A DNA stretch of 35,055 bases, taken from positions 1-35,055 of the forward strand of contig MGGS01000003.1 of the NCBI GenBank assembly GCA_001792535.1, read 5' to 3'. Within the stretch, counting starts at the first letter, position 1, and every line of letters begins with the position of its first letter. This document shows, piece by piece, positions 3,078 to 34,329 of the stretch. The notes under the pieces are model-generated. The model made no database searches. It was not told where the DNA came from and saw only the letters and a program-made list of their open reading frames with translations. Source of the stretch: Candidatus Woesebacteria bacterium RIFCSPHIGHO2_02_FULL_42_20. Lineage in GTDB: Bacteria > Patescibacteriota > Microgenomatia > UBA8517. The position numbers and the translations under genes were made by a program.

Positions 3078-3100
3078 ACGACTAATGTTATACTTTTGCA
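3078..3100. promoter_or_regulatory. Overlapping divergent leaderless promoters
   Basis: The 23 bases between two divergent start codons contain both promoters. Plus strand: TGTTATACT (extended -10, 3086-3094) ends six bases before the GTG at 3101. Minus strand: TAACAT (complement of 3085-3090) ends seven bases before the ATG at 3077. The two -10 elements overlap, so both mRNAs would begin at or beside their start codons and both promoters probably cannot be occupied at once. The core GACTAATGTTA (3080-3090) recurs at the divergent promoter at 28011-28021. Confidence 0.6.
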
Positions 3101-3745
3101 GTGAAAATTAAAAGGTTACTTCCGTACGTTTTTATCTTAACTTTTGTTGGACTAACAGTCTATTTACTTAGCGAAAGCATTAGCTCTGATAAAGTTGCTG
3201 ATATTGTTAAGTCAACAGGGCCACTTGCGCCATTGGTTTTTATTTCCCTTTTTGCTTCAACGCACGTCCTTGCGCCACTAAGTGCATCTCCATTGTTATT
3301 TCCTGCATTTTTACTTTTTGGAGCTAAACCAACTGTATTTTATATGTATTTGGCAACCGTTATTTCTTCTTTCACAAATTTCTGGATATCAAAACAGTGG
3401 GGTAGAAGTCTGGTGATTAAATTGGTAGGAAATAAAAATATGCAGAAAATAGACGAATTCACAGAGTACTACGGTGTCGGTGCCTTAATATTTTTACGTC
3501 TCTTTAGTGGTTATATGACGGATTTTGTATCCTATGCTTATGGTTTAACAAAAATTAAATTTTCAGTGTATTTTCTAATTTCTATTCTAGTTCCAATTCC
3601 ATGGCTTCTCTTTTGGCAACTTTATGTTGGAAATAGGGTTGATGGTATAAAAGATTTCGCAGTTTGGGTATACATTCCCATAATACCTTTTGTGTTTATC
3701 ACATCTTTATTTATTTATAAATTTAAAAAGAAGCGTTCTAAGTGA
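3101..3745 (+). CDS. VTT/DedA-like (SNARE-associated) membrane protein
   Basis: 214 residues with about five hydrophobic segments: a helix at 8-24, a re-entrant type stretch around 45-75, and helices near 80-95, 150-175 and 187-206. The order of a hydrophobic hairpin, then ISKQWGRSLV, then YYGVGALIFLRLFSG and a second hairpin is that of the VTT domain (PF09335; DedA, TVP38/TMEM64). Members of that family include undecaprenyl-phosphate flippases and phospholipid scramblases, so recycling of a lipid carrier for the surrounding glycan pathway is an attractive but unproved role. The GTG start lies six bases after an extended -10 box; there is no room for a ribosome binding site of its own. The gene stands alone, followed by 121 noncoding bases. 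Confidence 0.75.
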   Translation: MKIKRLLPYVFILTFVGLTVYLLSESISSDKVADIVKSTGPLAPLVFISLFASTHVLAPLSASPLLFPAFLLFGAKPTVFYMYLATVISSFTNFWISKQWGRSLVIKLVGNKNMQKIDEFTEYYGVGALIFLRLFSGYMTDFVSYAYGLTKIKFSVYFLISILVPIPWLLFWQLYVGNRVDGIKDFAVWVYIPIIPFVFITSLFIYKFKKKRSK

Positions 3746-3852
3746 CTGCTTGCTGATTAATCGATGAATCGGAGAAAGGTGTGCTTGATATGACCGTGAT
3801 AGTATGGGTGTGGATCTCGAAGTGAGTGCTTTATTTGTTTGAGCTGTGAGTA

Positions 3853-3858
3853 TATAAT
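3853..3858 (+). promoter_or_regulatory. Promoter of hicBA, leaderless type
   Basis: A perfect TATAAT ends eight bases before the ATG of hicB (3867). No clear -35 box is visible at the normal distance. The rest of the gap 3746-3866 contains no gene that I can support; it has one 16-base imperfect palindrome at 3754-3769 (GATTAATC/GATGAATC) about 100 bases upstream of hicB. Confidence 0.6.
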
Positions 3859-3866
3859 CTCTTTGT

Positions 3867-4106
3867 ATGACTAAAAAATTAGACTATCTTATTAAACTTA
3901 TATATGACAAAGATTACAAAGGCTATGTTGCCGATGTTGTAAATTTGTATGGCTGTATGTCTCAGGGAAAGACTAAAAAGGAAGCTTTGGCCAACGCAGA
4001 GAAAGCAATAAAGGCATACATGAAAGTAATAAGCAGGAGCAGAAAAGCAAACTTTGTCGGTTTCGCTAAAAGAGCAGTTGATATTTCACTTCCAGCATTT
4101 AACTAA
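3867..4106 (+). CDS. hicB: HicB-family antitoxin
   Basis: 79 residues. The pattern of an N-terminal strand (YLIKLIYDKDYKGYVADVVNLYGCMSQGKTKKEALANAEKAI) is the HicB partial RNase H-like fold, which binds and neutralises the HicA toxin. The protein ends about 20 residues after this domain, so the C-terminal helix-turn-helix or ribbon-helix-helix DNA-binding domain of longer HicB proteins is missing and self-repression through HicB itself is doubtful. The start is set by the TATAAT box eight bases upstream and by the match to the family N-terminus. It abuts hicA directly (TAA then ATG), in the order antitoxin then toxin. Confidence 0.85.
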   Translation: MTKKLDYLIKLIYDKDYKGYVADVVNLYGCMSQGKTKKEALANAEKAIKAYMKVISRSRKANFVGFAKRAVDISLPAFN

Positions 4107-4337
4107 ATGCCCAAGTTTGCGAATATCTCAGGAAGAAACGCTGTAAAAGCGTTTTTAAAATCCGGCTATAAACATGTTCATACTTCCGGTGATCATGCGA
4201 TACTGCAAAAGTCTGGCTGTCCATCGCTGTCTATTCCGCTGCACAAAGAAATCGCCCCGTTTCTCTTGAAATCCCAAGTAAAAAGAGCAGGACTAAATGG
4301 GAATGAGTATTTAAAATTACTAAAGCAAAGATCGTAA
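4107..4337 (+). CDS. hicA: HicA-family mRNA interferase toxin
   Basis: 76 residues. It has the HicA double-stranded RNA-binding-like fold: SGRNAVKAFLKSGYKHVHTSGDHAIL, then PSLSIPLHKEIAPFLLKSQVKRAGLNGNEYLKLL. The conserved histidine that follows the glycine in HicA toxins is present (SGDH, about residue 29), so the RNase is probably active; when released from HicB such toxins cleave mRNA and stop growth. The length is normal for the family. It directly follows hicB with no gap, so the two are translationally coupled. A new promoter for the next operon lies within the 38 bases after the stop. The pair may serve stress response, phage defence or simply local maintenance. Confidence 0.88.
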   Translation: MPKFANISGRNAVKAFLKSGYKHVHTSGDHAILQKSGCPSLSIPLHKEIAPFLLKSQVKRAGLNGNEYLKLLKQRS

Positions 4338-4359
4338 AAGTGAACGAGATCTCCTTATC

Positions 4360-4368
4360 TGCTAAAAT
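4360..4368 (+). promoter_or_regulatory. Extended -10 promoter of the polyprenyl-sugar/GT-C operon
   Basis: TGCTAAAAT, an extended -10 element, ends seven bases before the ATG at 4376. The -35 position (about 4340, GTGAAC) is only a weak match. Transcription would start at or just before the start codon. Confidence 0.6.
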
Positions 4369-4375
4369 CTAGGAT

Positions 4376-5143
4376 ATGGGTGCAATGCCTTATCTTTCTG
4401 TTGTTATTCCTGCTTACAATGAGGTTGAGAACATAAAACGAGGAGTTTTGGGGAGCGTTTACGACTATTTAAAGCAACAAAAATATACTTGGGAGGTGTT
4501 GCTTGCAAACGACGGGTCAACCGATGACACATCCAAAATGCTTCATAAATTTGCCGACAAGCATAAGGGATTTAGAGTTCTAGATGAACCACATAGAGGG
4601 AAAGCAGGTATTGTTATCGCGGGAATGCTCAAAGCTGCGGGTGAAATTGTTATTTTTACCGACATGGATCAAGCGACACCTATTGACCAGCTTGAAAAAA
4701 TGCTTCCCAAGTTTGCCGAAGGTTATGCATTGGCTATTGGTGTACGCAGTGGCAGAAAAGGTGCCGGACTACAACGGCTGGCAATGGCATACGGTTTTGC
4801 TGTTCTTCGCTTTGCGATACTAAGACTTCCCTTTAAAGATACTCAATGCGGCTTTAAAGGCTTCACAAACAAAGCGGCAAAAGAAATTTTCAGGCGGATG
4901 CAGGTGTTTCGTGATGGCCAAGCTTCCAAGGGGTCGGCAGTCACCGCGGGATTTGATTTAGAAGTGTTATACATTGCCAGAAAGTTGGGTTACAAAGTGG
5001 CCGAGGTCCAGGTTGAATGGTCGGACTCCGGGGAACGAGGAAAACACGGAGTAAACCCCATCAAGGATTCCTGGGAAGGCCTTAGAGATTTAATCCGTGT
5101 GCGTGTAAATGCAGTGCTTGGAAAATATAAAGTTCAAGAATGA
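4376..5143 (+). CDS. GT2 polyprenyl-phosphate hexose synthase (ALG5/DPM1-like)
   Basis: 255 residues, soluble GT-A fold. Visible motifs: LSVVIPAYNE at the N-terminus, NDGSTDD (about 45-51), TDMDQATP (95-102) containing the metal-binding DxD, and DTQCGFKGF (about 155-163), which is characteristic of dolichyl-phosphate glucosyltransferases (ALG5). It should transfer a hexose from a nucleotide sugar to polyprenyl phosphate on the inner face of the membrane. The N-terminal membrane anchor of eukaryotic ALG5 and the C-terminal helices of some DPM1 relatives are absent. It is first in an operon of GT-C enzymes, which use exactly such donors, and overlaps the next gene by ATGA. The leaderless-type promoter places the start at 4376. 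Glucose versus mannose specificity cannot be read. Confidence 0.85.
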   Translation: MGAMPYLSVVIPAYNEVENIKRGVLGSVYDYLKQQKYTWEVLLANDGSTDDTSKMLHKFADKHKGFRVLDEPHRGKAGIVIAGMLKAAGEIVIFTDMDQATPIDQLEKMLPKFAEGYALAIGVRSGRKGAGLQRLAMAYGFAVLRFAILRLPFKDTQCGFKGFTNKAAKEIFRRMQVFRDGQASKGSAVTAGFDLEVLYIARKLGYKVAEVQVEWSDSGERGKHGVNPIKDSWEGLRDLIRVRVNAVLGKYKVQE

Positions 5144-6678
5144 AAAAAGTGTTTCGTAAATGGTGGAAAACAGTTGCAGCTTTAGTTTTTATCCTTCTAC
5201 TTGCTTTTCTTATTAGACTGGCTAATTTGACCATTTTGCCGGTTTTTGCCGATGAGGCAATTTATATCCGCTGGTCGCAAATTATGCACTCCGAGCCGAC
5301 TTTAAGGTTTCTGCCTTTATCGGACGGCAAACAGCCTTTGTTTATGTGGGTTTTAATGGTTGTTATCAGTCGTTTTGACGACCCGTTAATTGCCGGGCGA
5401 TTGGTTTCTGTTTTCGCGGGTTTGGGAACAATAATAGGGGTTTTCTCGCTTAGTTATTTGATATTTAAATCAAACTTGGCTGCATTGGTTTCCTCACTTA
5501 TTTGGGCAATTTCACCCTATGCGATTTTTTTTGATCGTATGGCTTTAGTTGACTCCATGCTTGCCATGTTTGGCATTTGGACAGTCTTTTTTGCGATTGT
5601 AACCGTAAGGACCTTGCGCCTTGACTTTGCTATGATAACCGGATTTTTATTAGGTGCAGCCCACCTGACGAAGTCTCCATCAATCTTCTTTGTCATGATG
5701 CTCCCTGTAACCTGGCTTTTCCTAAAGAAATTTGACAAGAGACACTTGGTTAAACTTGTTGGCTTAAGCATTGTGTATTATGCAATTAGTTTCATTATTT
5801 ATAACATTCTTCGTCTAGGTCCAAATTTTCAACTAATTGCGAGTCGGAATTTTGACTATGTCTATCCTGTCACTCGACTTTTTAATAACTGGAGAGACCC
5901 TTTGATTTCTCATTTGGGTATGTTTTGGGACTGGCTGGTTAAGCTTGGACCCTGGCCCTTAGTTTTGTTAGTAATTACCGGTGTAACAATTAGCTTTAAA
6001 AAATATACAAAGGAGTTATTAGTTATTGGTTTATGGTTCATTGTGCCGGTACTTATTCAGGCCGAATATGGAAAAGTTTTCGCAGCCCGTTACGTTTTCT
6101 TTTCGATTCCTTTCATGGTTATTTTGGCAGGTGCCGGTTTTGTAAAAAGAAAAAGTATTTCTGTTATATTACTTTTGGTTTTTGTTGCAGCGTCCTTAGG
6201 CTCTAATTTCCATTTACTTACTAAGCCAGCAAAAGCTGCCTTGCCCGAAAGCGAAAGAAATGGCTATTTGGAAGAGTGGACTTCGGGTATAGGAATAAGA
6301 GAAGTGGCTGAGTTTATAAAACTCCAAAACTCCAAAAGTCCAAACCTTCAAATAGTGGTTGGCACGGAAGGTTATTTCGGGACGTTGCCTGACGGACTGC
6401 AAATGTATATCGAAGACTTGCCAAACGTGAATGTAATTGGGGTGGGAGTGGACCTAAAGGAGGTGCCGACTTCCTTGGTTGAATCGAAAGTTTCTGGCAA
6501 TAAGACTTATCTGGTGATTAATAAAAGCAGACTTCTGTTTGATCCAGCAAATTTCGGACTAGAACTCATTGCTGCTTACCCAAAGGAGCCGCGTAAACCA
6601 GACACCTGGCATTATACTTTAAAGGGTTCGCAAGAGGTGCTTTATTTATTTGAATTAACCGGAGACTATGCTGACTAA
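5140..6678 (+). CDS. GT-C membrane glycosyltransferase (GT39/GT83, PMT_2-like)
   Basis: 512 residues: about eleven hydrophobic helices, then a soluble region from about residue 370. The first outer loop reads PVFADEAIYIRWSQ with the Asp-Glu pair (38-39) that is catalytic in ArnT and protein O-mannosyltransferases. It should transfer a sugar from a polyprenyl-phosphate donor on the outer face of the membrane. It overlaps the ALG5-like gene by ATGA, consistent with using its product. The soluble region contains an odd low-complexity stretch, KLQNSKSPNLQ, encoded by four copies of an 8-base repeat (6321-6352). Acceptor unknown. Confidence 0.8.
   Translation: MKKVFRKWWKTVAALVFILLLAFLIRLANLTILPVFADEAIYIRWSQIMHSEPTLRFLPLSDGKQPLFMWVLMVVISRFDDPLIAGRLVSVFAGLGTIIGVFSLSYLIFKSNLAALVSSLIWAISPYAIFFDRMALVDSMLAMFGIWTVFFAIVTVRTLRLDFAMITGFLLGAAHLTKSPSIFFVMMLPVTWLFLKKFDKRHLVKLVGLSIVYYAISFIIYNILRLGPNFQLIASRNFDYVYPVTRLFNNWRDPLISHLGMFWDWLVKLGPWPLVLLVITGVTISFKKYTKELLVIGLWFIVPVLIQAEYGKVFAARYVFFSIPFMVILAGAGFVKRKSISVILLLVFVAASLGSNFHLLTKPAKAALPESERNGYLEEWTSGIGIREVAEFIKLQNSKSPNLQIVVGTEGYFGTLPDGLQMYIEDLPNVNVIGVGVDLKEVPTSLVESKVSGNKTYLVINKSRLLFDPANFGLELIAAYPKEPRKPDTWHYTLKGSQEVLYLFELTGDYAD
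6321..6352 (+). repeat. 8-base tandem repeat inside a GT-C gene
   Basis: ACTCCAAA, ACTCCAAA, AGTCCAAA, CCTTCAAA: four imperfect copies in a row inside the coding sequence, giving KLQNSKSPNLQ in the soluble part of the protein. It looks like an in-frame insert tolerated in a loop. Confidence 0.6.
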
Positions 6679-7915
6679 ATACAAAAAAATATTAGTGATA
6701 GGGATTTTGTTGAGAGTTGTCTTGATGTTTTCCACATTCCATCCAGACCTTCAAGGCCATTCTTCGGTTACCTACTTTTTTACTTATGAAAAGAAACTGG
6801 ATATTTACCAGCACTTAGCGGCGCTACCCGTTGATCATCCATTGGTTAAAAACCTTGGGGTGGGGGACATTTTTATTTACCCGCCGCTTTCCTATTTTAC
6901 CTTAGGTATTGCCCGGACGGTATTATCTCCGTTTGCAGATCCGAACTTTACGCCGTGGATATGGGAAAACTTGGATAAAGTTGAAACATTCCCGGGATTT
7001 CATTTTCAAATTTTTCTTCTAAAAATACCTTATTTGTTTGTAGACGTATTGGCGGCTGTATTTTTGGCAAGATTGTTTGATAAAGAAAGCAACCAAAAAA
7101 AGGCGTTTGTGTTCTGGCTGTTTAACCCTTTGACGCTATATTCGACCTTTATGCTGGGGCAACTTGACTTGCTACCGACTTTTTTTGTAATACTTTCTAT
7201 TTATTTTGCAAAAAAGAAAAAATATTCTTTGTCTCTTGTGGCACTGGGAATCGGCGGTAGCTACAAGATGTTTCCTTTGCTTTTTATACCGGTAGCCGCG
7301 TTTTTGTTTTCAAAGTCTATAAGAGGCAGAGTAAAAAACCTATTTATTGGGTTTGTGCCTTTTGTAATTACAATACTACCTTTTTTGGGCTCACTGGCTT
7401 TCAGGCAAATGGTCTTATTCAGTCCCAAATCTCAAAAAATGCTTTTTATGAACTGGCCCGTTTCGGGGGCTGAAGGTATTTATCCGTTTGTTTTTATTTT
7501 AGTGCTATTGTATCTACTAGCATTTTATGGTCAAAACGCAAGGCTGCTTTTATCGTATTTTTTAAGCATTCTTCTTCTTACCTTTTCGGTGACCCATTAC
7601 CATCCACAATGGTTTCTGTGGATTACTCCGCTTTTGATAGTCGACCTCGTCAAAACTCGTAAACGCTGGGTCTTGGTTACAATCCTTATTGGGTGTTGGC
7701 TTGTGATAACGTTATTCTTTGAACCGTCGCTTTCCTATGGGTTGTTTTATCCGGTGTTTCCCGACCTAAAAAACGTTGTGGGCTTGACCGAGATTCTTTC
7801 TAAATATACCGAAGTGTTTAAGTTAAAGAGCATAATAAGGAGCCTTTTCGCTGCAGCTGCTTTTTACTACGCGTTTGACGTAATTAGGTCGAAGGTTAAG
7901 TTAAAAACTCAATGA
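6668..7915 (+). CDS. GT-C-like membrane glycosyltransferase, HPDL type
   Basis: 415 residues with about ten membrane helices. The first outer loop carries STFHPDLQGHS (His25-Pro-Asp27) instead of the DE pair of its neighbours, and a later loop has NPLTLYSTFMLGQLDLLPTFF. The gene at 33061 has the same arrangement (HPDL at exactly residues 25-28, NPVVWYNSSVWGQTDS), so the two are paralogues of one GT-C clade, perhaps near GT87 or the PIG-M/GT50 mannosyltransferases (inference). The role would be sugar transfer from a polyprenyl-phosphate donor. It overlaps the previous gene by 11 bases and the next by ATGA; a GGAG lies just before the ATG. Confidence 0.68.
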   Translation: MLTKYKKILVIGILLRVVLMFSTFHPDLQGHSSVTYFFTYEKKLDIYQHLAALPVDHPLVKNLGVGDIFIYPPLSYFTLGIARTVLSPFADPNFTPWIWENLDKVETFPGFHFQIFLLKIPYLFVDVLAAVFLARLFDKESNQKKAFVFWLFNPLTLYSTFMLGQLDLLPTFFVILSIYFAKKKKYSLSLVALGIGGSYKMFPLLFIPVAAFLFSKSIRGRVKNLFIGFVPFVITILPFLGSLAFRQMVLFSPKSQKMLFMNWPVSGAEGIYPFVFILVLLYLLAFYGQNARLLLSYFLSILLLTFSVTHYHPQWFLWITPLLIVDLVKTRKRWVLVTILIGCWLVITLFFEPSLSYGLFYPVFPDLKNVVGLTEILSKYTEVFKLKSIIRSLFAAAAFYYAFDVIRSKVKLKTQ

Positions 7916-9561
7916 AACATCGGATTTTTATTTTATTGCTTGTGTTAATCATACCTTCGTTTGCGAATCTGCTTCGCCCGGGATATTTTCCAATGCAGGA
8001 TGACTTACAGGCAATGCGGCTACACCAAATGGATAAGTGTTTTAGAGATTTTCAGATTCCCTGCCGTTGGGTGCCGGACATGGGCTACGGCTACGGCTAT
8101 CCTCAGTTTAACTATTATGCACCTGGAGTATATTACCTGGGAGAAGTTTTTCATTTAGTAGGCTTTCAGTTTGTTGACGTAGTTAAAATTCTTTTCATTA
8201 TAGGCTTCGTTCTCTCTGGCATTTTTATGTATGTCTTGGTTCGAGAGATCTTCGGTGAGTTACCGGCACTGGTCGCAAGCCTTTTTTATGTATACGGACC
8301 GGTTAGGGCGGTACAGGTTTACGTTAGAGGATCGCTTTCGGAGTTTTGGGTGGCAGTTTTTTTCCCGCTGGTTGTTTGGGCGGCAATTAAATTGGTTAAA
8401 TCGCAAAAGAATAACCACTTGGTACTGTTTTCTTTGTCTGTTGGCTCAATGTTTGTTATCCATAATCTGCTGCCATGGTTTTTCTTGCCGGTTTCGCTGT
8501 TTATAGCGTTATTCTTTTTACCCAAGAAAAATAAACTAAAATCGGTTACCAAGCTTTTTTGGGGTATAGTTTTGGCTTTCGGTCTGGCCGCCTTTTTTTT
8601 GATTCCGGTGTTTTTGGAAATCGGATATGTACACACAGAAACCCTACTCGGGGGGTATTTTGATTACCGGCGGCACTTTGTTTCCATCAAGCAACTTTTC
8701 TTGGCGAATAATTGGGGTTTCGGGTCGTCGGATATCGGTTCAGGCGACGAGTTAAATCTGGCACTCGGGCTGCTGCATTGGCCCGTTGCATTTCTTGGAA
8801 TCCTGGTTCTTTTAGCCAAACGAAAGTTGGACGGAATAGCAAAGCTCGTTATACCAACCAGTCTGGCATTTTTGGTCTTTGTATTTTTGATTCACTCCAG
8901 ATCCCATTTCGTTTGGGAAATGTTTGCAGTGCTTGCCTATTTACAATTTCCCTGGAGGTTTTTAGTGTTGACCAATTTTCTTTTAGCGCTCCTTGTAGGA
9001 ATTTCTGCTTTCTACTTTTCCGAAAATAAAAAAATTGCTTTTGTACTCGTTGGGTTGGTTTTTGTTTTCTATGGCTCGTTTTTTGCTCCAAAAGACTGGT
9101 TCCCGCTCTCCGATCGCGAAAAATTCAGCGGCAGCAATTGGGAAAGACAGCTTACAATTAGCATATTTGACTATCTGCCGGTTTCCGCCAGTGCTCCACC
9201 AGAGTCTAAAGCTTCGGAATTGCCGGAAGTGCTTGAAGGTGAAGCAAGCCTTTTGTCGTATACAAGAGGTAGTAACTTCCAAGAAGGAAAAGTGGTATCG
9301 ACCGGTAAGTCGTTGCTGAGAATTCCTATCTTTGACTTTCCCGGAATGGTAGCCAGTGTTGACGGCTATGAAGTTCCTGTTTTAAATGACTGCAGGGGAC
9401 AAAAAAATTGTTTGGGTTTAGTTACGATAGAAGTTCCAAGCGGCGAACATATCGTCAAAGTAAGGCTTACAGACACGTTGCCCAGAACTTTGGGCAATGT
9501 GATTTCGTTGGTTAGTCTTATTTTTTTGGTTGGCATATGGAAAAAATCGAAAAGTTTGTAG
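7912..9561 (+). CDS. GT-C-like membrane protein, PTPS-related (PF10131) family, copy 1
   Basis: 549 residues. It has about twelve helices and an extracellular C-terminal beta-type domain (about 400-525) with a closing membrane helix. A DD pair (30-31, PMQDDLQ) sits in the first outer loop, followed by CRWVPDMGYGYGYPQFNYYAP, the hallmark of the membrane family misleadingly named '6-pyruvoyl-tetrahydropterin synthase-related'. The C-terminus (IPIFDFPGMVASVDGYE, then VPSGEHIVKVRL) is like the YfhO end domain. It is one of three tandem paralogues; its first loop is nearly identical to that of the copy at 11161. Function is probably glycosyl transfer at the outer face. ATGA overlap with the gene upstream. 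Confidence 0.75.
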   Translation: MKHRIFILLLVLIIPSFANLLRPGYFPMQDDLQAMRLHQMDKCFRDFQIPCRWVPDMGYGYGYPQFNYYAPGVYYLGEVFHLVGFQFVDVVKILFIIGFVLSGIFMYVLVREIFGELPALVASLFYVYGPVRAVQVYVRGSLSEFWVAVFFPLVVWAAIKLVKSQKNNHLVLFSLSVGSMFVIHNLLPWFFLPVSLFIALFFLPKKNKLKSVTKLFWGIVLAFGLAAFFLIPVFLEIGYVHTETLLGGYFDYRRHFVSIKQLFLANNWGFGSSDIGSGDELNLALGLLHWPVAFLGILVLLAKRKLDGIAKLVIPTSLAFLVFVFLIHSRSHFVWEMFAVLAYLQFPWRFLVLTNFLLALLVGISAFYFSENKKIAFVLVGLVFVFYGSFFAPKDWFPLSDREKFSGSNWERQLTISIFDYLPVSASAPPESKASELPEVLEGEASLLSYTRGSNFQEGKVVSTGKSLLRIPIFDFPGMVASVDGYEVPVLNDCRGQKNCLGLVTIEVPSGEHIVKVRLTDTLPRTLGNVISLVSLIFLVGIWKKSKSL

Positions 9562-12879: not shown

Positions 12880-12948
12880 CTTGTTTTTGATTTACTACGC
12901 CACTACGTATGGGAGTATATCTTCGAGTTTTAACAACAATCAATATAA

Positions 12949-12957
12949 TGGTAAAAT
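12949..12957 (+). promoter_or_regulatory. Extended -10 promoter of the flippase gene
   Basis: TGGTAAAAT ends six bases before the GTG at 12964. A second, perfect TATAAT at 12944-12949 lies 14 bases before the same start and could be an alternative -10 box. TTTAAC at 12929-12934 is a weak -35 candidate, 17 bases from TAAAAT. The rest of the 84-base gap 12880-12963 has nothing else that I can name. Confidence 0.55.
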
Positions 12958-12963
12958 TTTAGT

Positions 12964-14457
12964 GTGGTGAGGCAGGATATTGGAGAACATTTAAACCCGA
13001 CCGATGAAATTACGCTCGAGGCTGTAAAGTCAAGAGCTGTTAAGGGTGTTGTCGCATTGACCGGCCGCACGTTGGTGCTTAATATTATTTCGCTTTTCGC
13101 TCAAGGTCTTCTTTGGGCGTTTTTAAGCCCGGAACAGTTCGGAGTATTTTTGATTGTTTCTGCAACCATTAATTTTTTGAGCTATTTTGCGGATATTGGC
13201 TTGGGAGCGGCGTTGATTCAAAAAAGGGAGAAGCCAACTGAAGCGGACTTTAAGACGGTATTTATCGTTCAAGAAACATTGGTTGTTACGATTACGCTAT
13301 TGGTTTTTTTGATTAGCCCGGTGCTTGCCCGTACACATAACCTGACTTACGAGGGTATAGCGCTTTTGTATGCGCTAACCATTTCGTTTTTCTTGGCGTC
13401 TTTAAAAAACATTCCCTCAATAATTTTGGAACGCAAGCTGGAATTTGGCAAATTTATTATTCCTCAAGTTGTCGAGCAGGTTGTCTACAACGTTGCGGTT
13501 GTGTTTTTTGCCTGGAGGGGCTTTGGGATAACAAGTTTTACGTATGCAGTTTTGATTCGGGGGGTTATTGGAGTTGTGACGATTTATATCCTTCAACCGT
13601 GGAAACCGGGGCTAGCATTTTCTAAAGCTTCGCTCAAAGGCCTTTTGAGATTCGGTATTCCCTACCAGCTCAATAATTTTCTGGCAACAATTAAAGACGA
13701 TGGTATGACAATTGTCTTGGGAGGGGTACTGGGGAGCGCGGGACTGGGAATTTTGGGAACTGCCCAGAAACTTGCGCAATACCCACTGCGGTTTTTTATG
13801 GATAATGTAACCAAGGTTACCTTTCCCGCATTTTCCAGGATGCAGGATGACAAAACCTACTTGGAAAGGAGCTTGACCAGATCGCTATTTTTCATTTGTG
13901 CACTTGTCTTTCCGAGCCTAGTCGGGCTATCGGTGTTGTTTCCGGTCTTGGTAACGGTCATTCCCCGCTACGGCAAGTGGGCGAGTGCATATATTCCCTT
14001 CTTATTAATCTCCATTAATTCTATGTTTGCGGCTGGTTCCACCCAATTGACCAACTTACTCAACTCGATTGGCAGGATCAAAACAACATTCAAACTTATG
14101 GTTATGTGGACAGTTCTTACTTGGGCAATTCTGCCCTTTTTGTCGATTGTTTCTGGCGCCCAAGGCGCGGCCCTCGGTTATGCCGTCGTTGGTGCAAGTT
14201 CGGTAGTAGTCTTTTATTTAGTTAAACGAGTTGTCAACTTTTCATTTTACTATTCCGTGGTAAAACCTTTGTTTGCCTCAGGCATTATGGGTGCTGTTTT
14301 GCTGGCCGCAAGGGGTCTATTTTCCTGGAGTTTTTTGGGAATTGGTATGATGGTGGTTATTGGTATTACTTTTTATGCGCTGGTGATTTATTTGTTAGTG
14401 GGTAAATCTGCCGTCGAAGATGTTAAAAAAGTTTTTGCGACTTTTAGCAGAAAATAA
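12964..14457 (+). CDS. Wzx-type lipid-linked oligosaccharide flippase (MOP superfamily)
   Basis: 497 residues with 12-14 predicted membrane helices and no large soluble part. The N-terminal pattern VKSRAVKGVVALTGRTLVLNIISLFAQGLLWAFLSPEQFGVF, then ADIGLGAALIQKRE, is typical of polysaccharide biosynthesis/WzxC-like flippases (PF01943/PF13440). These turn undecaprenyl-linked oligosaccharides from the inner to the outer face of the membrane. In this locus it would link the cytoplasmic GT2/GT4 enzymes with the outer-face GT-C enzymes. The start is a GTG GTG doublet; the first GTG is chosen because it lies six bases after the -10 box. It overlaps the next gene by 38 bases. Confidence 0.85.
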   Translation: MVRQDIGEHLNPTDEITLEAVKSRAVKGVVALTGRTLVLNIISLFAQGLLWAFLSPEQFGVFLIVSATINFLSYFADIGLGAALIQKREKPTEADFKTVFIVQETLVVTITLLVFLISPVLARTHNLTYEGIALLYALTISFFLASLKNIPSIILERKLEFGKFIIPQVVEQVVYNVAVVFFAWRGFGITSFTYAVLIRGVIGVVTIYILQPWKPGLAFSKASLKGLLRFGIPYQLNNFLATIKDDGMTIVLGGVLGSAGLGILGTAQKLAQYPLRFFMDNVTKVTFPAFSRMQDDKTYLERSLTRSLFFICALVFPSLVGLSVLFPVLVTVIPRYGKWASAYIPFLLISINSMFAAGSTQLTNLLNSIGRIKTTFKLMVMWTVLTWAILPFLSIVSGAQGAALGYAVVGASSVVVFYLVKRVVNFSFYYSVVKPLFASGIMGAVLLAARGLFSWSFLGIGMMVVIGITFYALVIYLLVGKSAVEDVKKVFATFSRK

Positions 14458-16105: not shown

Positions 16106-16119
16106 AACTAAATATTTAA

Positions 16120-17496: not shown

Positions 17497-17503
17497 AATT
17501 GGG

Positions 17504-17512
17504 ATTATATCA
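17504..17512 (-). promoter_or_regulatory. Extended -10 promoter of the CARF-HEPN gene, leaderless type
   Basis: On the minus strand TGATATAAT (perfect TATAAT with TG extension) ends seven bases before the ATG at 17496. No good -35 box is visible; the TG extension may make up for it. It shares a 68-base divergent region with the promoter at 17548. Confidence 0.65.
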
Positions 17513-17547
17513 AATTTTGGCTATTTTATTTATAATTATCGATTTCG

Positions 17548-17556
17548 TGTTAAAAT
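17548..17556 (+). promoter_or_regulatory. Extended -10 promoter of the large GT2/GT4 operon
   Basis: TGTTAAAAT ends eight bases before the first GTG (17565) of the GT2 gene. A TATAAT at 17531-17536 on the same strand is too far from the start to fit the pattern of this window, but could be a second promoter with a short leader. Confidence 0.6.
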
Positions 17557-17564
17557 TTAGAGCA

Positions 17565-27382: not shown

Positions 27383-28008
27383 GTTTTGTTTAGTAGTTCG
27401 GCCAGAAACCAAGGATAGTGAACGGTATAGTTGTGGAAAAATCTTAATATTTCAAAAAACAAAAAGGCTACCAGAATAGAAAAAATTCTTTTATCTTTTT
27501 CATAAGCCTTCTGGGTTCCAAGCGCTGTTAGGTAAGTTAAACCAATTAGGAACGGTATTCGGGTTAACGTTTCAAAATGGGGTGCAAAAAACGCGGCGGG
27601 CACAGCCAATACAATTAGGAGCAAAATCAGAGGTTTGTTTTTATACGCACCATATAAAAAGAAAGGTAGAAAGCTAAGATAAATTGCACCTGCAAGGTGC
27701 GAGCTTTTTGTTGTTTCAGGGTCGCCTTTAAAAAACAGAAAACTTGGGTCAAAGGACTCGAAATATCTTTGAAAAACCTCTTTTGCAAAAAAGACAGGTT
27801 TGTTTACCAATAGTTTTGAAATCATATTGGTCGGTCCAAGCTCGCCTCGTAAAGTATTTATATTGTCAACAAAGTGTTGATTACTGATAATAAGTCGTGG
27901 TGGTAGAGTGTAGTTGATCATTTGGCTGTTGACCGAAAGCGTGATAAACCAGGGAGAAGTAATAATTAAGCCAAAAAACAAAATTATTCTTAACTTAGCT
28001 TTAGACAC
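27379..28008 (-). CDS. Half-size GT-C relative (209 aa), upstream partner of a full GT-C
   Basis: With the GTG at 28008 as start the protein is 209 residues (MSKAKLRIILFFGL and on). It has one N-terminal helix, an outer region, and then SFDPSFLFFKGDPETTKSSHLAGAIYL followed by about four helices. This loop is the one found in the second half of the full GT-C enzymes here, so the protein corresponds to their C-terminal half without the N-terminal half that carries the DE motif. It is therefore unlikely to be an active transferase alone. The start is fixed by TAACAT seven bases upstream, as in the 3077 gene. It ends in an ATGA overlap with the full GT-C. The gene at 30851 has the same length, loop and position. 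Confidence 0.65.
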   Translation of the reverse strand: MSKAKLRIILFFGLIITSPWFITLSVNSQMINYTLPPRLIISNQHFVDNINTLRGELGPTNMISKLLVNKPVFFAKEVFQRYFESFDPSFLFFKGDPETTKSSHLAGAIYLSFLPFFLYGAYKNKPLILLLIVLAVPAAFFAPHFETLTRIPFLIGLTYLTALGTQKAYEKDKRIFSILVAFLFFEILRFFHNYTVHYPWFLAELLNKT

Positions 28009-28032
28009 CAGACTAATGTTAAAATAAATCTC
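28009..28032. promoter_or_regulatory. Overlapping divergent leaderless promoters (second copy)
   Basis: 24 bases between GTG 28008 (minus) and ATG 28033 (plus). Plus: TGTTAAAAT (28017-28025) ends seven bases before the ATG. Minus: TAACAT (complement of 28016-28021) ends seven bases before the GTG. The 11-mer GACTAATGTTA (28011-28021) is identical to 3080-3090, and both minus starts read TAACATTAGT, three bases, start codon. Confidence 0.62.
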
Positions 28033-29721
28033 ATGAAACACAAGACTGTGTTTTTACTTGTCGTCTTGTTAGCTTCAATCTTAAGATTGTATAAACTTGA
28101 TCGTGTCCCCGTTTCGATGTTTGGTGATGAACTTGACGTTGGTTACCATGCCTATTCCATACTCAAAACAGGCCGGGATTACCAAGGTAACTTTATGCCT
28201 TTGCATTTCCATTCACTGGCTGAATGGCGGACTCCATTGTATCTTTATTCCACCGTTCCCACAGTTGCGATATTCGGAATTAGCCCTTACGGCGTGAGGT
28301 TGCCGGCAGCTTTTTTTGGCATAGCAGGGGTGATTGCGGTTTATTTGTTGGTCAAAAAAGTAACAAAGACGAAGCGGCTGGCAATGTTTGCGGCTTTTCT
28401 TTTAACAGTTTCCCCGTGGCATATTCAGTATTCGAGAGCGGCTTTTGAAGTAACCGAGATGCTATTTTTTCTTTTAATGGCTTTACTTTTTTACTTTAAA
28501 GCAAGGGAAAAGTCAAAGTACTTGTGGGTCGCGGTGTTTTTCGCGATGCTTATGCCCTGGGTCTATAGCACTTCTAAGTTGTATGTTCCCCTTGTGTTAC
28601 TTACAGCAATTTTTATTTGGAGAAAATGGCTAGCATTGATACCGTTGAAGCACAAAATTTTGGCTGTTGGCACTGGTCTTGTTTTGGGATTGCCACTAAT
28701 TGTCGTTACTTTAACAGGCGAGGGTAGCCAGAGGTTCGGCTATGTGAGTGTTTTCAGTGACCCGACTGTTGTTCCCGAAGTCGGAGTAGACAGGTGGGAA
28801 GATGCCAAATCAAGAGGTGAAACTGGCGAAGGCTTGTCTCCGGCAATTGCCGACAGGCTTATTCACAACAAATATACAGTCTGGCTCAAGGTCATAACAA
28901 ATAACTATTTGCAGTCTTTTTCTACAGATTTTTTATTTATGAATGGTGACCCCAATCCAAGGCATTCCATAGACGGGATAGGGGAATTTTATAGGATAGA
29001 CTCGATAATGTTGTTGGTTGGAATAATAGTCTTTTTGAAGTCTAAATTGGAGATTAAGGTCAAAACGTTTTTAGTCATTTTGTTATTACTTTCTCCAATA
29101 TCGGCTGCAATTACCAGAGACGGCGGCAATCACGCGACCCGACTCATTCTAATGCTGCCATTTATTGTTCTGCTTGTTTCCTACGGCTTAAATTGGCTAA
29201 GAAAACATAAAACAGCATTTGTTATGTGTTGTTTGCTGTATGTTGTTAACTTTATTTTTTACCAGCATAATTATTGGGTTCATAACCCGTATCAGTCGGA
29301 GAGATGGTGGCATGCCGGTTGGGGAGAGGCGATTCAATTGATTAAACAAGATGAGAAGAATTATGACAAAGTGATAATTTCAATGGCCGGCGAACCGGCG
29401 TGGATATTTTTTGCGGCCTACATGGAATATCCTCCTGAAGCTTGGCAGGAAAACTTTCCAATAGACAACAAGACATCCCTGCGCGGGTTTGGCGATGTAT
29501 CTCATATAGCCAAGTATTATTTCGGTACAGCGAACGTCGAGGGCGGAATATATTCACTACCTAGTCTTATTGACGGTAAAACTTTGTATCTTGCCAATGC
29601 AAAAGAAGTTGGAGGAAATTTGATTAGAGAGCCAGATAAGACCCCGATTGGCTTAAAGTTAATTGACTCGGTAGCATTTCCTTCCGGCGAGCCGGCTTTT
29701 TACTTATTTACAAAATCATGA
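28033..29721 (+). CDS. GT-C membrane glycosyltransferase (GT39-like, DE motif)
   Basis: 562 residues with about eleven helices. LDRVPVSMFGDELDVGYHAYSILKTGRDYQG gives the DE pair at 32-33 in the first outer loop; SFSTDFLFMNGDPNPRHSIDGIGEFY is the conserved second-half loop. The C-terminus from about 430 is soluble (WVHNPYQSERWWHAGWGEAIQLIK, then YPPEAWQ) and resembles that of the gene at 25715, its divergent neighbour. A polyprenyl-phosphate-sugar dependent transferase of the outer membrane face is the likely role. ATG is set by the leaderless-type promoter. It is coupled by ATGA to an HD-domain hydrolase, an unexpected partner. Confidence 0.8.
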   Translation: MKHKTVFLLVVLLASILRLYKLDRVPVSMFGDELDVGYHAYSILKTGRDYQGNFMPLHFHSLAEWRTPLYLYSTVPTVAIFGISPYGVRLPAAFFGIAGVIAVYLLVKKVTKTKRLAMFAAFLLTVSPWHIQYSRAAFEVTEMLFFLLMALLFYFKAREKSKYLWVAVFFAMLMPWVYSTSKLYVPLVLLTAIFIWRKWLALIPLKHKILAVGTGLVLGLPLIVVTLTGEGSQRFGYVSVFSDPTVVPEVGVDRWEDAKSRGETGEGLSPAIADRLIHNKYTVWLKVITNNYLQSFSTDFLFMNGDPNPRHSIDGIGEFYRIDSIMLLVGIIVFLKSKLEIKVKTFLVILLLLSPISAAITRDGGNHATRLILMLPFIVLLVSYGLNWLRKHKTAFVMCCLLYVVNFIFYQHNYWVHNPYQSERWWHAGWGEAIQLIKQDEKNYDKVIISMAGEPAWIFFAAYMEYPPEAWQENFPIDNKTSLRGFGDVSHIAKYYFGTANVEGGIYSLPSLIDGKTLYLANAKEVGGNLIREPDKTPIGLKLIDSVAFPSGEPAFYLFTKS

Positions 29722-30356
29722 ATAAGGTCGATATAGTTGTTAACGAAGCTAAAAAATTATTGAAAGAGAATCCGTTTGATGTTGGTCATGATTTGAGTCA
29801 CCACACAATGGTTTGGAGATTGGCTAAACGAATCACTAAAAATATAGATGAAAAAATTGATATGGATGCACTTAAAACTGCATGTTTGTGGCATGATGTG
29901 GTTGTTACCAAGTTGCCAACTAAAGACGTATTACTGAAAACAAAAATGACAGATGACTCTTTAGAGTATTTGGTTGTTCTCTTAAAAAAATATAAATTTA
30001 GTAAAGAGTTTATAAATAAAGTTGTTATAGCAAAAAAATACCACCATTTTGATGAAAAGCCGAGAAGTGTAGAAGGTAAAATTTTGTGGGATGCAGATAA
30101 GCTTGGTGTTTTAGGTTTGAACAGGTGGCAGAGATTTATTCAGGCCGAGAAAAACGGGAAAATTCCAAAATCTTTTGTTAGCTACTATGCAAGCACGTTT
30201 AAAGAAAAGTACTTAAAAACAATGCGTAACAGGTTACATTTTAAATACAGCAAAATCTTGCATGATGAAATGATTCTAAGACTGATTAAGAGTAAAGAGG
30301 GAAGGGCAACCGCAAAAAGGTTTAGCTGGGATTTGAAATCAGCCTTACCAAAATAA
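29718..30356 (+). CDS. HD-domain phosphohydrolase (YedJ/YpgQ-like)
   Basis: 212 residues, soluble and basic. The metal-binding pattern of the HD superfamily is visible: GHDLSHHTMVWRLA (His at 24-29), CLWHDVV (His59-Asp60), KKYHHF (about 107-111) and WDADKLG (Asp125/127). YedJ/YpgQ-type enzymes hydrolyse nucleotides, but substrates vary widely in this superfamily and none can be assigned. It overlaps the GT-C gene by ATGA and touches the ASCH gene (TAATG), so the three are co-translated. Whether it serves the glycan pathway, for instance by removing a nucleotide by-product, or is just carried along, is open. Confidence 0.75.
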   Translation: MNKVDIVVNEAKKLLKENPFDVGHDLSHHTMVWRLAKRITKNIDEKIDMDALKTACLWHDVVVTKLPTKDVLLKTKMTDDSLEYLVVLLKKYKFSKEFINKVVIAKKYHHFDEKPRSVEGKILWDADKLGVLGLNRWQRFIQAEKNGKIPKSFVSYYASTFKEKYLKTMRNRLHFKYSKILHDEMILRLIKSKEGRATAKRFSWDLKSALPK

Positions 30357-30748
30357 TGTTCAAAGCCCCTAAAAATACATCTATATTTAAAAAAGAACCA
30401 AAAAATGACAAATATGTCATTCAGTTTGCTCCTGAATTATGCAGGTTTATTAGAGAAAGAAAAAAATGTCAAACTTTTAGGTATGGAGATAAGTATGATT
30501 ATCTGAAAGTTGGGGACAACGTTAAAATTCGGAACGTGATAACAAAAGGAATAATTGGAAAAGCAATAATAACAGATAAAGCTTATAAAATATTTTCAAA
30601 ATTACCGTATAACAATCTTGGTAGTCATGAATCATACAGCAGTAAAGAGCACCAGAAAAAAGTTTTAAGTGGTTATTACACGTACATCGGTCGGGAAATC
30701 TGCGACGACGACCCATTTATAATTTTTGATTTTAAATTAGTTAAATAG
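30356..30748 (+). CDS. ASCH/PUA-like domain protein
   Basis: 130 residues. KYVIQFAPELCRFIRERKKCQTFRYGDKYDYLKVGDNVKIRN, then KGIIGKAIITD, matches the ASCH domain pattern, in which a GxKxxTxR-type motif (here ERKKCQTFR) precedes a KVGD turn and beta strands. The fold is PUA-like; members bind RNA, and YqfB-type members hydrolyse N4-acetylcytidine. A charged insert (NNLGSHESYSSKEHQKKVL) follows. The assignment rests on reading motifs by eye and is moderate. It is the last gene of its operon, overlapping the HD gene by one base. Confidence 0.6.
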   Translation: MFKAPKNTSIFKKEPKNDKYVIQFAPELCRFIRERKKCQTFRYGDKYDYLKVGDNVKIRNVITKGIIGKAIITDKAYKIFSKLPYNNLGSHESYSSKEHQKKVLSGYYTYIGREICDDDPFIIFDFKLVK

Positions 30749-30785
30749 TAAATGTTCCTTGTATTAACGTACTAGTACACTAATA

Positions 30786-30813
30786 CACTTCATACAACTA
30801 GTTAGCTGTAGTG
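30786..30813. repeat. Imperfect inverted repeat just upstream of a promoter
   Basis: CACTTCATACAACT/AGTTAGCTGTAGTG: 10 of 14 positions pair around the centre AACTAGTT. A perfect 10-base palindrome GTACTAGTAC lies at 30769-30778. There is no T-run after either, so a terminator is unlikely; the repeat ends three bases before a -35 box and could be an operator. This is all that I see in the gap 30749-30850 besides the promoter. Confidence 0.4.
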
Positions 30814-30816
30814 TGT

Positions 30817-30844
30817 TTGAAAGGTAGTTTATCGGTGTTAATAT
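30817..30844 (+). promoter_or_regulatory. Complete promoter (-35 TTGAAA, extended -10 TGTTAATAT)
   Basis: TTGAAA at 30817-30822 and TAATAT at 30839-30844 are 16 bases apart, with TGT before the -10. The -10 ends six bases before the GTG at 30851. It is the best full promoter in the window and again of leaderless type. Confidence 0.7.
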
Positions 30845-30850
30845 TGATTG

Positions 30851-31480
30851 GTGAAAAAAATACTGATCTTTATACTGATTGGCTTAGGTAATTATTGGAT
30901 TTGGAGGATTTTCGAGACCAGTTTGATACTTGGTCTTTCCTGTATTATCGCCTCGGTTGGTTTGTCGAACTATTTAATTAATAATAAGCGATATCTATTG
31001 ATACTTTCTTCGGCTCTATTAGTAATTATTGGTTTGTTTCAAATAAAAAAATTTGATATCAGATCGTTTACTGGTACCTCTGCACTAGAGAGAGATTTTA
31101 TTGACAAGCGAATGAGGCTCTATCCAAGCCCTCGAGTTGCTCATTGGCTAGAACAAAGGCCGGAAGCAATCGCTTTTTACAGATTTACTGATAACTCAGG
31201 AGAAGTTTTGGATTTTAATTACTACTTCTTTGCTAACCATCCAAGAGAAAGAGCAGCAGTTACCGAATACGCGAAGTTTCCGTGGTTTTATTTGCCACCG
31301 TTTTTGGGAGGGTTGTATCTGTCTTTAAAACAAAAAAGAAATTTAAAGTTCCATCTGTTATTTATGTTTGCAGTTGTTGTAACAGCCGCCGTTTATCCAA
31401 ACGAGCCCGTTGGATTTGTTTTAGTGTTTCCATTCGTCGTTTCATTGAGTGCTTATTCGGTAAATAATTATGTTAAATAA
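30851..31480 (+). CDS. Half-size GT-C relative (209 aa), second copy
   Basis: 209 residues from the GTG at 30851; the track's TTG one codon earlier is less likely. Three N-terminal helices (about 4-65) precede an outer segment, RPEAIAFYRFTDNSGEVLDFNYYFFANHPRERAAVTEYAKFPWFYLPPFLGGLY, which aligns with KPVFFAKEVFQRYFESFDPSFLFFKGDPE and YLSFLPFFLYGAY of the gene at 27379. About two or three more helices follow. No DE motif and no N-terminal catalytic half are present. It overlaps the full GT-C gene downstream by 11 bases, the same arrangement as at 27382. The two proteins are equally long but clearly diverged. Partner or regulatory subunit is an inference. Confidence 0.6.
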   Translation: MKKILIFILIGLGNYWIWRIFETSLILGLSCIIASVGLSNYLINNKRYLLILSSALLVIIGLFQIKKFDIRSFTGTSALERDFIDKRMRLYPSPRVAHWLEQRPEAIAFYRFTDNSGEVLDFNYYFFANHPRERAAVTEYAKFPWFYLPPFLGGLYLSLKQKRNLKFHLLFMFAVVVTAAVYPNEPVGFVLVFPFVVSLSAYSVNNYVK

Positions 31481-33056
31481 ATTGTCTGTATCTGTACTGT
31501 TAATCTTTTGTGCCTTCTTGTTTTTTTGGAGATTGGATAAAGTCCCACCGGGTTTTTATATCGATGAGTCACTCCATTCTTATAACGCACTTTCAATACT
31601 TGAAACAGGAAAAGACGAATATGGCAAAGGTTTCCCTGTGCTTTTTAGATTTTTCGGCTCCTATAATGAGCCACTTTATGTGTACCTTACAACTATTTCT
31701 ATTTGGTTGTTTGGAGAGACCATTTTTGCAGCCAGGCTCATTTCGGCTTTAGCCGGGGTGTTATCGACAATTTTAATATATTTTTTCATGCTCAAGGTTA
31801 CAAAAAACAGGACGACATCTGTTATTGTTGGCCTATTGGGGGCTATGAGTCCATGGCTATTGCTTTATTCACGCACTGGCTTTGAGGTTTCTTTAGCTTT
31901 CTTTTTGTTTTTGCTCGGACTTTTCACCTTTTACTTAGGCACGAAGAAACCGAAATATATAGCAATTTCTTTTTGGTTATTTTCGTTTTCAACGTATGCT
32001 GCGTATACCGAGCGATTCGTGTCACCGCTTCTTGCGCTTTTACTGATATTTATTTTTAAAGAGTATTTGTTTAGAAAAGAAAATCGAAAGTATTTATTAC
32101 TGGGGACATCTGGCGCGCTATTAATTCAAATTCCCCATTTATTTCTTGTATCCACTCCGGCATTTTTCCCGAAAGGAGACCTATTTTCTTTAGGCGGGTT
32201 TATTGCCCGCTACATTTATTATTTCTCACCCGAAGCACTTTTTTTCAAAGGCGACCCAGACCTGCAGCGGTCTGTTCCGGAAATGGCGGTTTTTCCTTTT
32301 TGGCTGGTAATTCCTTATTTTGTTGGTTGGTATTTTTGTTTCAAAAAAAGATTTTCGAATTTGTCCAAACTGATAATAGCTTCGGCTTTGATATCTCCAC
32401 TTCCGGCGGCATTGACTTCAGATCCTTTTGCAACCCACAGAGCCATGCCACTGCTTGCACCACTTCTACTGGTTATAGGGATAGGTGTTAACAAAATTTT
32501 TGAGATTCTAAAACCGTTTTTGGGTGTTTTTTTGTTTCTGTTAATTTTTATGGTCTCAGCACTTCTTTTATGGAGATCCTTTTTTGTACTCTTACCGGGC
32601 GAGCGGTCGTTTTATTGGGGACAGCAGTATGTGGAATTGGCCAAATTAATTAAGCAAGATCACCAAAACCTTTATTTAATTGACCAGGGGAGACTAAAAA
32701 TTGCTTACGCCACGATAGCATATATAGCCGACATTGACCCTTTGATTTTTCAACAGCCACAAAGCCTGGAAATTGAAGAAAATTACTATTCAGCGTTTCC
32801 TTACAACCCAAGCTATTCGTTTGCAAATGTCGAGCTTCGCTCGCTAGACTGGGAAACAGATATTTACAAAAACCAGATTATAGTTGGTGACAACATTAGT
32901 ATTTCACAAGAACAGGCAAGAGAGCACTTTTTGAAAAAAGAATTTGAGATAACCGATCCTTTGGGTGAAGTGTTACTTTCAGGCTTTAAAACAAGTCCCA
33001 AATCAAAGTGTGAATCCATCAAGTACGAAAATACTCACTGCAAAGGTGTAAAATAA
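31470..33056 (+). CDS. GT-C membrane glycosyltransferase (GT39-like, DE motif)
   Basis: 528 residues. RLDKVPPGFYIDESLHSYNALSILETGKDEYGKGF gives Asp32-Glu33 in the first outer loop, and YYFSPEALFFKGDPDLQRSVPEMAVFP the conserved second-half loop. About eleven helices, then a soluble end of about 130 residues with a Cys pair (SKCESIKYENTHC) at the very C-terminus. It is the full-length partner of the half-size gene at 30851, overlapping it by 11 bases. The likely role is sugar transfer from a polyprenyl-phosphate donor at the outer face. The promoter of the next gene lies across its stop codon. Confidence 0.8.
   Translation: MLNKLSVSVLLIFCAFLFFWRLDKVPPGFYIDESLHSYNALSILETGKDEYGKGFPVLFRFFGSYNEPLYVYLTTISIWLFGETIFAARLISALAGVLSTILIYFFMLKVTKNRTTSVIVGLLGAMSPWLLLYSRTGFEVSLAFFLFLLGLFTFYLGTKKPKYIAISFWLFSFSTYAAYTERFVSPLLALLLIFIFKEYLFRKENRKYLLLGTSGALLIQIPHLFLVSTPAFFPKGDLFSLGGFIARYIYYFSPEALFFKGDPDLQRSVPEMAVFPFWLVIPYFVGWYFCFKKRFSNLSKLIIASALISPLPAALTSDPFATHRAMPLLAPLLLVIGIGVNKIFEILKPFLGVFLFLLIFMVSALLLWRSFFVLLPGERSFYWGQQYVELAKLIKQDHQNLYLIDQGRLKIAYATIAYIADIDPLIFQQPQSLEIEENYYSAFPYNPSYSFANVELRSLDWETDIYKNQIIVGDNISISQEQAREHFLKKEFEITDPLGEVLLSGFKTSPKSKCESIKYENTHCKGVK
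33049..33054 (+). promoter_or_regulatory. -10 box across a stop codon, leaderless type
   Basis: TAAAAT at 33049-33054 shares its last base with the TAA stop (33054-33056) of the preceding gene and ends six bases before the GTG at 33061. The TG extension is absent. It could be chance, as the two genes could also be co-transcribed. Confidence 0.45.
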
Positions 33057-33060
33057 TTTT

Positions 33061-34329
33061 GTGAAAAAGAAATTAGCAATTCTTTTTGGTTTGGCGTTTG
33101 TATTTAGGATGGTCTTGGCTTTCGGGGTTTATCACCCCGATCTTCGGAATCACATGGATTGGGGAATAAGATTTTGGGACTATGGGCCAGAAAAGTTTTA
33201 TACTGCCAACGTTTGGAGCTATACTTGGCCAAATCAACCCCCCGGTACAATATATATATTTGCGGGGGTAAGAAAACTTTTTGAAGCGGTGTTTGGTATT
33301 TTTTGGTGGATAAACACCACTGTCCCACCATTTCCTTCGCAAATGATGTTTTTTTTGGAAAGCAACTTGTACCCGGCACTTTTGAAACTTCCTGCGATTT
33401 TGGCTGACTTGGGAATTGCATTTATAATTTATAAACTCCTTTCGCAATTGAAATCTAAAAGGTTGGGTTACTTTGGCGCATTGGTTTTTCTGGTTAACCC
33501 GGTAGTTTGGTACAATTCCAGCGTTTGGGGACAAACAGACTCGATAATCAATTTTGTTGCGCTTGCCGCTTTTTACCTTCTTTTAAAAAGGCAATTACTG
33601 CTGGCGGTTATGGTTTTAAGTCTATCTCTTTATATAAAGGTATCACTTTTGATATTTGTTCCCGTCTTCGCAATAATTGTTGTAAGACAGAAATACAAAT
33701 TGGTGGAGATTTTGAATGCGGTTGTTTTTTCGCTCTTGGCAGTATTGTTTATTACTCTTCCGTTTGCCCCCGAAGCTCCTCATAATTGGCTCTTTAGAAT
33801 TTACAAAGACAAGGTTTTTGCCCAGCAACTTCATGTTATTACAGCTAACGGGTTTAATATCTGGTCGGCATTAACCGGCATTCATGAACAGCCGGACAGC
33901 CTGATATTTGCCATTATAAATTATCGCACCTGGGGCTACATCATCTTTGCTGGGTTTTTGGTTTTACCTTTGTATAAAATATACAAAAAGCAAAATGCTT
34001 CTTCGGTCTTTACCACGCTAAGTCTTGTGGCCTATTCTTCGTTTATGCTTTTAACTAATATGCACGAAAGATATCTTTATCCTCTATTTCCAGTATTCAC
34101 AATAATGGTTTTATTAAACAATAAATTAAGATCACTGTATTGGATTATTAGTTTGTTGACACTTTTTAATATGTATCATTTTTGGTGGTATCCTGAAATC
34201 GGGTTGGTAAGGTCGATTTTTGAATACGGAGACAGATTGCTTCCAAGAGTGATGGGTGCAGTCAACTTTGTGCTTTTTGTTTCGGTATATAGAAGATTAC
34301 TTTTTGACGGCGACAGAGTCCGTAAGTGA
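33061..34329 (+). CDS. GT-C-like membrane glycosyltransferase, HPDL type (second copy)
   Basis: 422 residues, about ten helices. VYHPDLRNHMDWG puts His25-Pro-Asp27 in the first outer loop, at exactly the positions found in the gene at 6668. Further motifs are FLVNPVVWYNSSVWGQTDS, a Lys-containing loop LYIKVSLLIFVP, and NMHERYLYPLFP near the C-terminus, which recalls the His motifs of ALG6/ALG8 and related GT-C enzymes. Function is most likely transfer of a hexose from polyprenyl phosphate. GTG start. The last 33 bases overlap the gene on the minus strand, tail to tail, with no terminator visible. Confidence 0.7.
   Translation: MKKKLAILFGLAFVFRMVLAFGVYHPDLRNHMDWGIRFWDYGPEKFYTANVWSYTWPNQPPGTIYIFAGVRKLFEAVFGIFWWINTTVPPFPSQMMFFLESNLYPALLKLPAILADLGIAFIIYKLLSQLKSKRLGYFGALVFLVNPVVWYNSSVWGQTDSIINFVALAAFYLLLKRQLLLAVMVLSLSLYIKVSLLIFVPVFAIIVVRQKYKLVEILNAVVFSLLAVLFITLPFAPEAPHNWLFRIYKDKVFAQQLHVITANGFNIWSALTGIHEQPDSLIFAIINYRTWGYIIFAGFLVLPLYKIYKKQNASSVFTTLSLVAYSSFMLLTNMHERYLYPLFPVFTIMVLLNNKLRSLYWIISLLTLFNMYHFWWYPEIGLVRSIFEYGDRLLPRVMGAVNFVLFVSVYRRLLFDGDRVRK

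Follow-up and report, generated by a model that had tools for sequence, protein, structure and literature searches.

Each of eleven start codons in the window, the whole stretch of 35,055 nucleotides analysed here, is preceded by a -10-like hexamer ending only 6-8 bases upstream, and we asked whether these boxes are promoters from which transcription begins at the start codon itself, leaving no room for a ribosome-binding site. The window spans the initial 35 kb of contig 3 in a Candidatus Woesebacteria genome (1.08 Mb, 98% complete) and harbors mostly cell-envelope and glycosylation genes.

Putative -10 elements of the window

Read-out of the window confirmed all eleven hexamers listed in the initial annotation, their distances of 6-8 bases, the seven TGn extensions and the six GTG codons among the eleven starts. 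For scoring, a 9-mer promoter model was trained exclusively on other contigs, and nine of the eleven boxes had p<0.01 against upstream null positions; the Fisher combined p for the eleven was 1.5e-15 against the upstream null and 4.5e-21 against all window positions.

Extended -10 elements on the plus strand were located at 3086..3094 (TGTTATACT, 6 bases before GTG 3101 of a VTT-domain protein gene; p 0.008), 4360..4368 (TGCTAAAAT, 7 bases before ATG 4376, glycosyltransferase; p 0.002), 12949..12957 (TGGTAAAAT, 6 bases before GTG 12964, MOP-family flippase; p 0.0005), 17548..17556 (TGTTAAAAT, 8 bases before GTG 17565; p 0.0015), 28017..28025 (again TGTTAAAAT, 7 bases before ATG 28033, PMT-family glycosyltransferase; p 0.0015) and 30836..30844 (TGTTAATAT, 6 bases before GTG 30851; p 0.008). 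On the minus strand, TGATATAAT at 17504..17512 lies 7 bases before ATG 17496(-), which opens the gene of a CARF-like protein (p 0.0005). A plus-strand TATAAT at 3853..3858 is placed 8 bases before ATG 3867 (p 0.004). The flippase at 12964 has its best relatives in Ca. Woesebacteria (Patescibacteria/CPR).

The two weak boxes are both TAACAT on the minus strand, at 3085..3090 (7 bases before ATG 3077(-); p 0.08) and at 28016..28021 (7 bases before GTG 28008(-); p 0.06), and each is the minus-strand member of an overlapping divergent pair. The first has its central TA in common with the plus-strand box at 3089 and the second shares a TA with the plus-strand box at 28020. For the 28008(-) gene the start is uncertain, 27825 being preferred on coding score alone.

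All eleven had been taken as starts of transcription units, which holds for ten of them. The GTG at 33061 lies 4 bases past the stop codon of the gene 31470-33056, and the -10-like TAAAAT 6 bases before it (33049..33054, plus strand; p 0.005) overlaps that stop codon and is an internal promoter at most. The list is not cherry-picked, because our own gene calls give no evident unit starts in the window other than the remaining ten.

Position of the boxes across the genome

The gene-level sample consisted of 400 kb of stretches plus the window (435 kb, 40% of the genome), in which genes and starts were called by coding potential with a home-made gene finder. Since start calling ignored the upstream sequence, a positional peak in this sample is not circular. 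Alignment of the upstream regions, which had been put forward as the check on the leaderless proposal, revealed a sharp TANNNT/TGnTAnnnT peak 6-7 bases before first genes and little before internal genes. Exactly 6 bases before the start, TANNNT was present in 44/205 first genes (background 7.0, p 6e-21) and TGnTANNNT in 17 (background 0.66, p 1e-18), while the operon-internal genes showed TANNNT in 12/142 (background 3.2) and TGnTANNNT in none. Expectation maximization (EM) refitted at shifted positions drifted to spurious motifs, and fixed models with held-out contigs were used for this reason. The learned model, with the consensus T56 G46 n T A W A A T, recovered 38/205 first genes and 6/142 internal genes, whereas shifted positions yielded 0-7 and 0-2, respectively. 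Upstream of the boxes only weak A/T preferences were detected at the place of a -35 element. The same pipeline applied to 150 kb of E. coli K-12, the single outgroup, gave 0/84 at 6 bases (p 9e-8 versus the window genome).

The box excess outside the window was largest in divergent first genes (~39%), smaller in same-strand first genes (11-21%) and 0-5% in internal genes; these shares are minimum estimates, since a weak box or a miscalled start escapes detection. Roughly half or more of the first genes carry no box at this distance from the start, and therefore other leaders or weak promoters exist. With ~25-40% of first genes detectable, leaderless transcription is probably a major mode of this genome rather than 'the rule', a wording that was too strong.

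Among the confident sites of the genome the spacing was 6 in 30/48 and 7 in 12/48, and spacings of 8-9 were rare. About one third of them, with spacings of 7-9, would allow transcription to start 1-5 bases upstream of the start codon, and in most bacteria the site of initiation varies by 1-2 bases; both points favour -10 elements that produce very short leaders (1-5 bases) instead of strictly leaderless messages. The modal spacing of exactly 6, at which +1 falls on the start codon's first base, argues against such leaders, and we consider them unlikely.

Less probable by some distance is an AT-rich translation signal within a longer 5' UTR, of the S1 or A/U-rich enhancer kind known in Bacteroidota. 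The genome, which encodes IF3, has kept an S1-like protein with three S1 domains, and some A-richness precedes the starts of internal genes. The motif, however, is the sigma-70 extended -10 TGnTAWAAT and not generic AT richness, it occurs at a single distance, before first genes but scarcely before internal ones, and the base at -1 obeys a preference resembling that of a transcription initiator, being a pyrimidine in 45/61 motif genes versus 62/142 internal genes (p 1e-4). That a reader merely picked out -10-like hexamers, common as they are in AT-rich intergenic DNA, would account for the two boxes (3077(-) and 28008(-)) that are no better than p 0.06-0.08 but has a negligible chance of being correct, given the combined p of ~1e-15, the peak relative to other spacings in the same DNA, and the 37 occurrences of TGNTANAAT-N6-RTG in the whole genome, counted with no use of gene calls, versus 2 for the N12 spacing control.

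The GTG excess is a feature of the window. A GTG preference as a leaderless trait did not extend to the genome, where 8/61 genes with the motif and 25/144 first genes without it start with GTG, and the excess at 6-7 bases obtained independently of gene calls was 16.5 for ATG and 2.3 for GTG; three separate tests found no genome-wide link between GTG and leaderless genes. GTG is nevertheless commoner in first than in internal genes (33/205 versus 8/142, p 0.004).

Sigma factor and Shine-Dalgarno signal

Exactly one gene with sigma-70 region 2 is present in the genome. Its product has a canonical region 2.4 and, in region 3.0, the segment 'IPVHMVETI', which in E. coli makes the contact with TGn. 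The gene's own TATAAT ends 11 bases before its ATG, not 6.

The boxes are very probably sigma-70 extended -10 promoters giving leaderless mRNAs, used by a large minority of the units here and widespread in Patescibacteria. As genuine sigma-70-type elements of the form TGnTAWAAT they would be read by the single housekeeping sigma factor, and transcription would start on the start codon or within 1-2 bases of it. The ribosome would then start directly on the 5'-terminal AUG/GUG without Shine-Dalgarno (SD) contact, presumably through the 70S/5'-AUG route. This mode would serve roughly 25-40% of the units, counted as detectable, beside weak SD-assisted initiation inside operons.

The anti-SD at the 16S 3' end is intact in this genome (GGATCACCTCCTTTCT) and would still permit initiation through an SD. 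The SD motif was found before 21% of first genes (control 13%) and 38% of internal genes (control 24%), whereas in E. coli the values were 55% (control 6%) and 73% (control 14%), respectively; strong enrichment of the E. coli type was thus seen in neither first nor internal genes of this genome. The weak SD signal of first genes is compatible with SD-free translation but is not proof of it. Two modes appear to coexist, leaderless starts at the beginning of units and, inside operons, starts that have a weak SD or are presumably coupled to termination.

In the 16S gene of G000 (C15), several hundred extra bases are inserted between the GCCCTTTAATACATACATCG region and the true 3' end; the gene also includes an N-gap of the scaffold, one flank of which is duplicated. 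CPR rRNA genes are known to contain insertions.

Distribution in Patescibacteria

In 287 patescibacterial genomes from 130 families the N6 pattern was counted 5902 times and the N12 control 1389 times, and N6 exceeded N12 in 273/287 genomes and 125/130 families. The gene-level pipeline applied to 13 further genomes gave a peak of varying strength, clear in most of them and weak in families f54, f61 and f51. To judge from these patterns, the messages of many genes, in this genome and in most genomes of the phylum sampled, probably begin at the start codon without a ribosome-binding site.

Comparison of the flippase homologues showed a box 6-7 bases before an in-frame start in 14/18, the shifted-position control being 7.8%. 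Measured on the protein alignment, the start codon is displaced by as much as 30 bases, and the box moves along with it. A congeneric genome keeps both promoters of the 17496/17565 pair; there the extended -10 of 17496(-) reads TGGTATAAT, and the box of 17565 is spaced 7 bases (8 here) from a conserved GTG. This conservation lends no independent support to selection, since the adjacent minus-strand gene is nearly identical there (94% protein identity over 109 residues).

Genome G109 and its relatives (f21) have a very high count of TGNTANAAT-N6-RTG (125 in 0.7 Mb) and a strong SD before other genes; a single genome here makes heavy use of both modes.

Anti-SD sequences of other families

Most of the CPR families sampled keep the anti-SD CACCTCC (GGATCACCTCC). 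Variants were found in f72 (CACTTCC, CATCTCC and similar; GGAACATCTCC, GGAACACTTCC), in f51 (CCGCC; GGAATACCGCC) and in part of f61 (TATCTCT; GGAATATCTCT), and in the f82 genome G132 (16S at C2:205554-207089) GGAATAATTCAATTTG stands in place of the anti-SD. In G132 and in G124, an f22 genome with an intact anti-SD, the SD motif was at or below control and the -10 peak was strong, with 31% and 34% of first genes, respectively. These values, from a small sample, are consistent with an SD system that relaxes where leaderless starts predominate.

A broader proposition is that leaderless initiation independent of the SD plays a far larger part in Patescibacteria as a whole than in textbook bacteria, and that in several lineages this let the SD system decay, the SD being at background in f22, f82 and f72, and the anti-SD carrying mutations in f72, in f51 and in some of f61 and having apparently disappeared from one f82 genome. 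We regard this as tentative, with chances slightly below even.

In f22 (G124, G032) and f82 (G132) the SD did not rise above background, or hardly so, whether before first genes or before internal ones, and -10-like boxes at 6 bases also precede some operon-internal genes.

Comparison with known leaderless systems

In Deinococcus-Thermus the -10 region adjoins the open reading frame (ORF), and leaderless mRNA has been demonstrated experimentally (Zhong et al. 2025, PMC12340547). That system and this genome have in common a TANNNT a few bases before the ORF, no required -35 element, and leaderless expression, predicted in our case, beside SD genes. They differ in phylum, and the consensus here is a TGn-extended TAWAAT in AT-rich DNA. 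According to Zheng et al. 2011 (PMC3160421) and the M. tuberculosis work (PMC3898074), a -10 box ~10 bases upstream of the start marks leaderless genes; the TA-led leaderless genes of Actinobacteria and others favour single genes or first genes of operons and reach a frequency of 20-40%, as predicted for this genome.

A term search showed that the survey of Zhong et al. 2025 (PMC12340547), which covers 'common phyla', does not mention Patescibacteria, and in the 953-genome survey (PMC3160421) the sections consulted name no CPR group and the terms 'TM7' and 'candidate division' are absent. No report of leaderless prevalence or of anti-SD loss in CPR was found in the literature searched, and the GeneMarkS-2 survey of thousands of genomes may include some CPR; priority for leaderless use in CPR is uncertain.

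Under the proposed reading, a trait hitherto associated chiefly with Actinobacteria and Deinococcus-Thermus would extend to another deep branch. CPR, whose ribosomes are small and unusual, account for a large part of the diversity of bacteria, and leaderless genes among them would bear on whether leaderless initiation is ancestral in bacteria. Gene-start annotation would change, as the -10 box can set the start codon; SD-free initiation would become testable in culturable CPR, and CPR families would offer natural cases of an eroding anti-SD.

Divergent pairs with possible shared -10 elements

The divergent genes 3077/3101 and 28008/28033 are separated by only 23-24 bases (3078-3100 and 28009-28032), and the opposed -10 boxes of each pair share a palindromic TA (ATGTTATACT, ATGTTAAAAT), the minus boxes being weak. 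Bidirectional promoters with a shared -10, described by the Grainger group (PMC10268837, PMC12825309) and defined by opposed elements with common bases and divergent starts 7-25 bp apart, resemble these pairs in sequence arrangement. In contrast to those promoters, both directions here would yield leaderless mRNAs of real genes, and the two starts lie 24-25 bases apart, whereas 18 is the commonest distance. As a class, compact divergent pairs (gaps 10-32) were rare, making up 9/169 divergent pairs, in a gap distribution without a clear peak. Similar compact pairs were observed at C1:182504/182527 and C13:80306/80324, and one was observed in G124 (gap 21).
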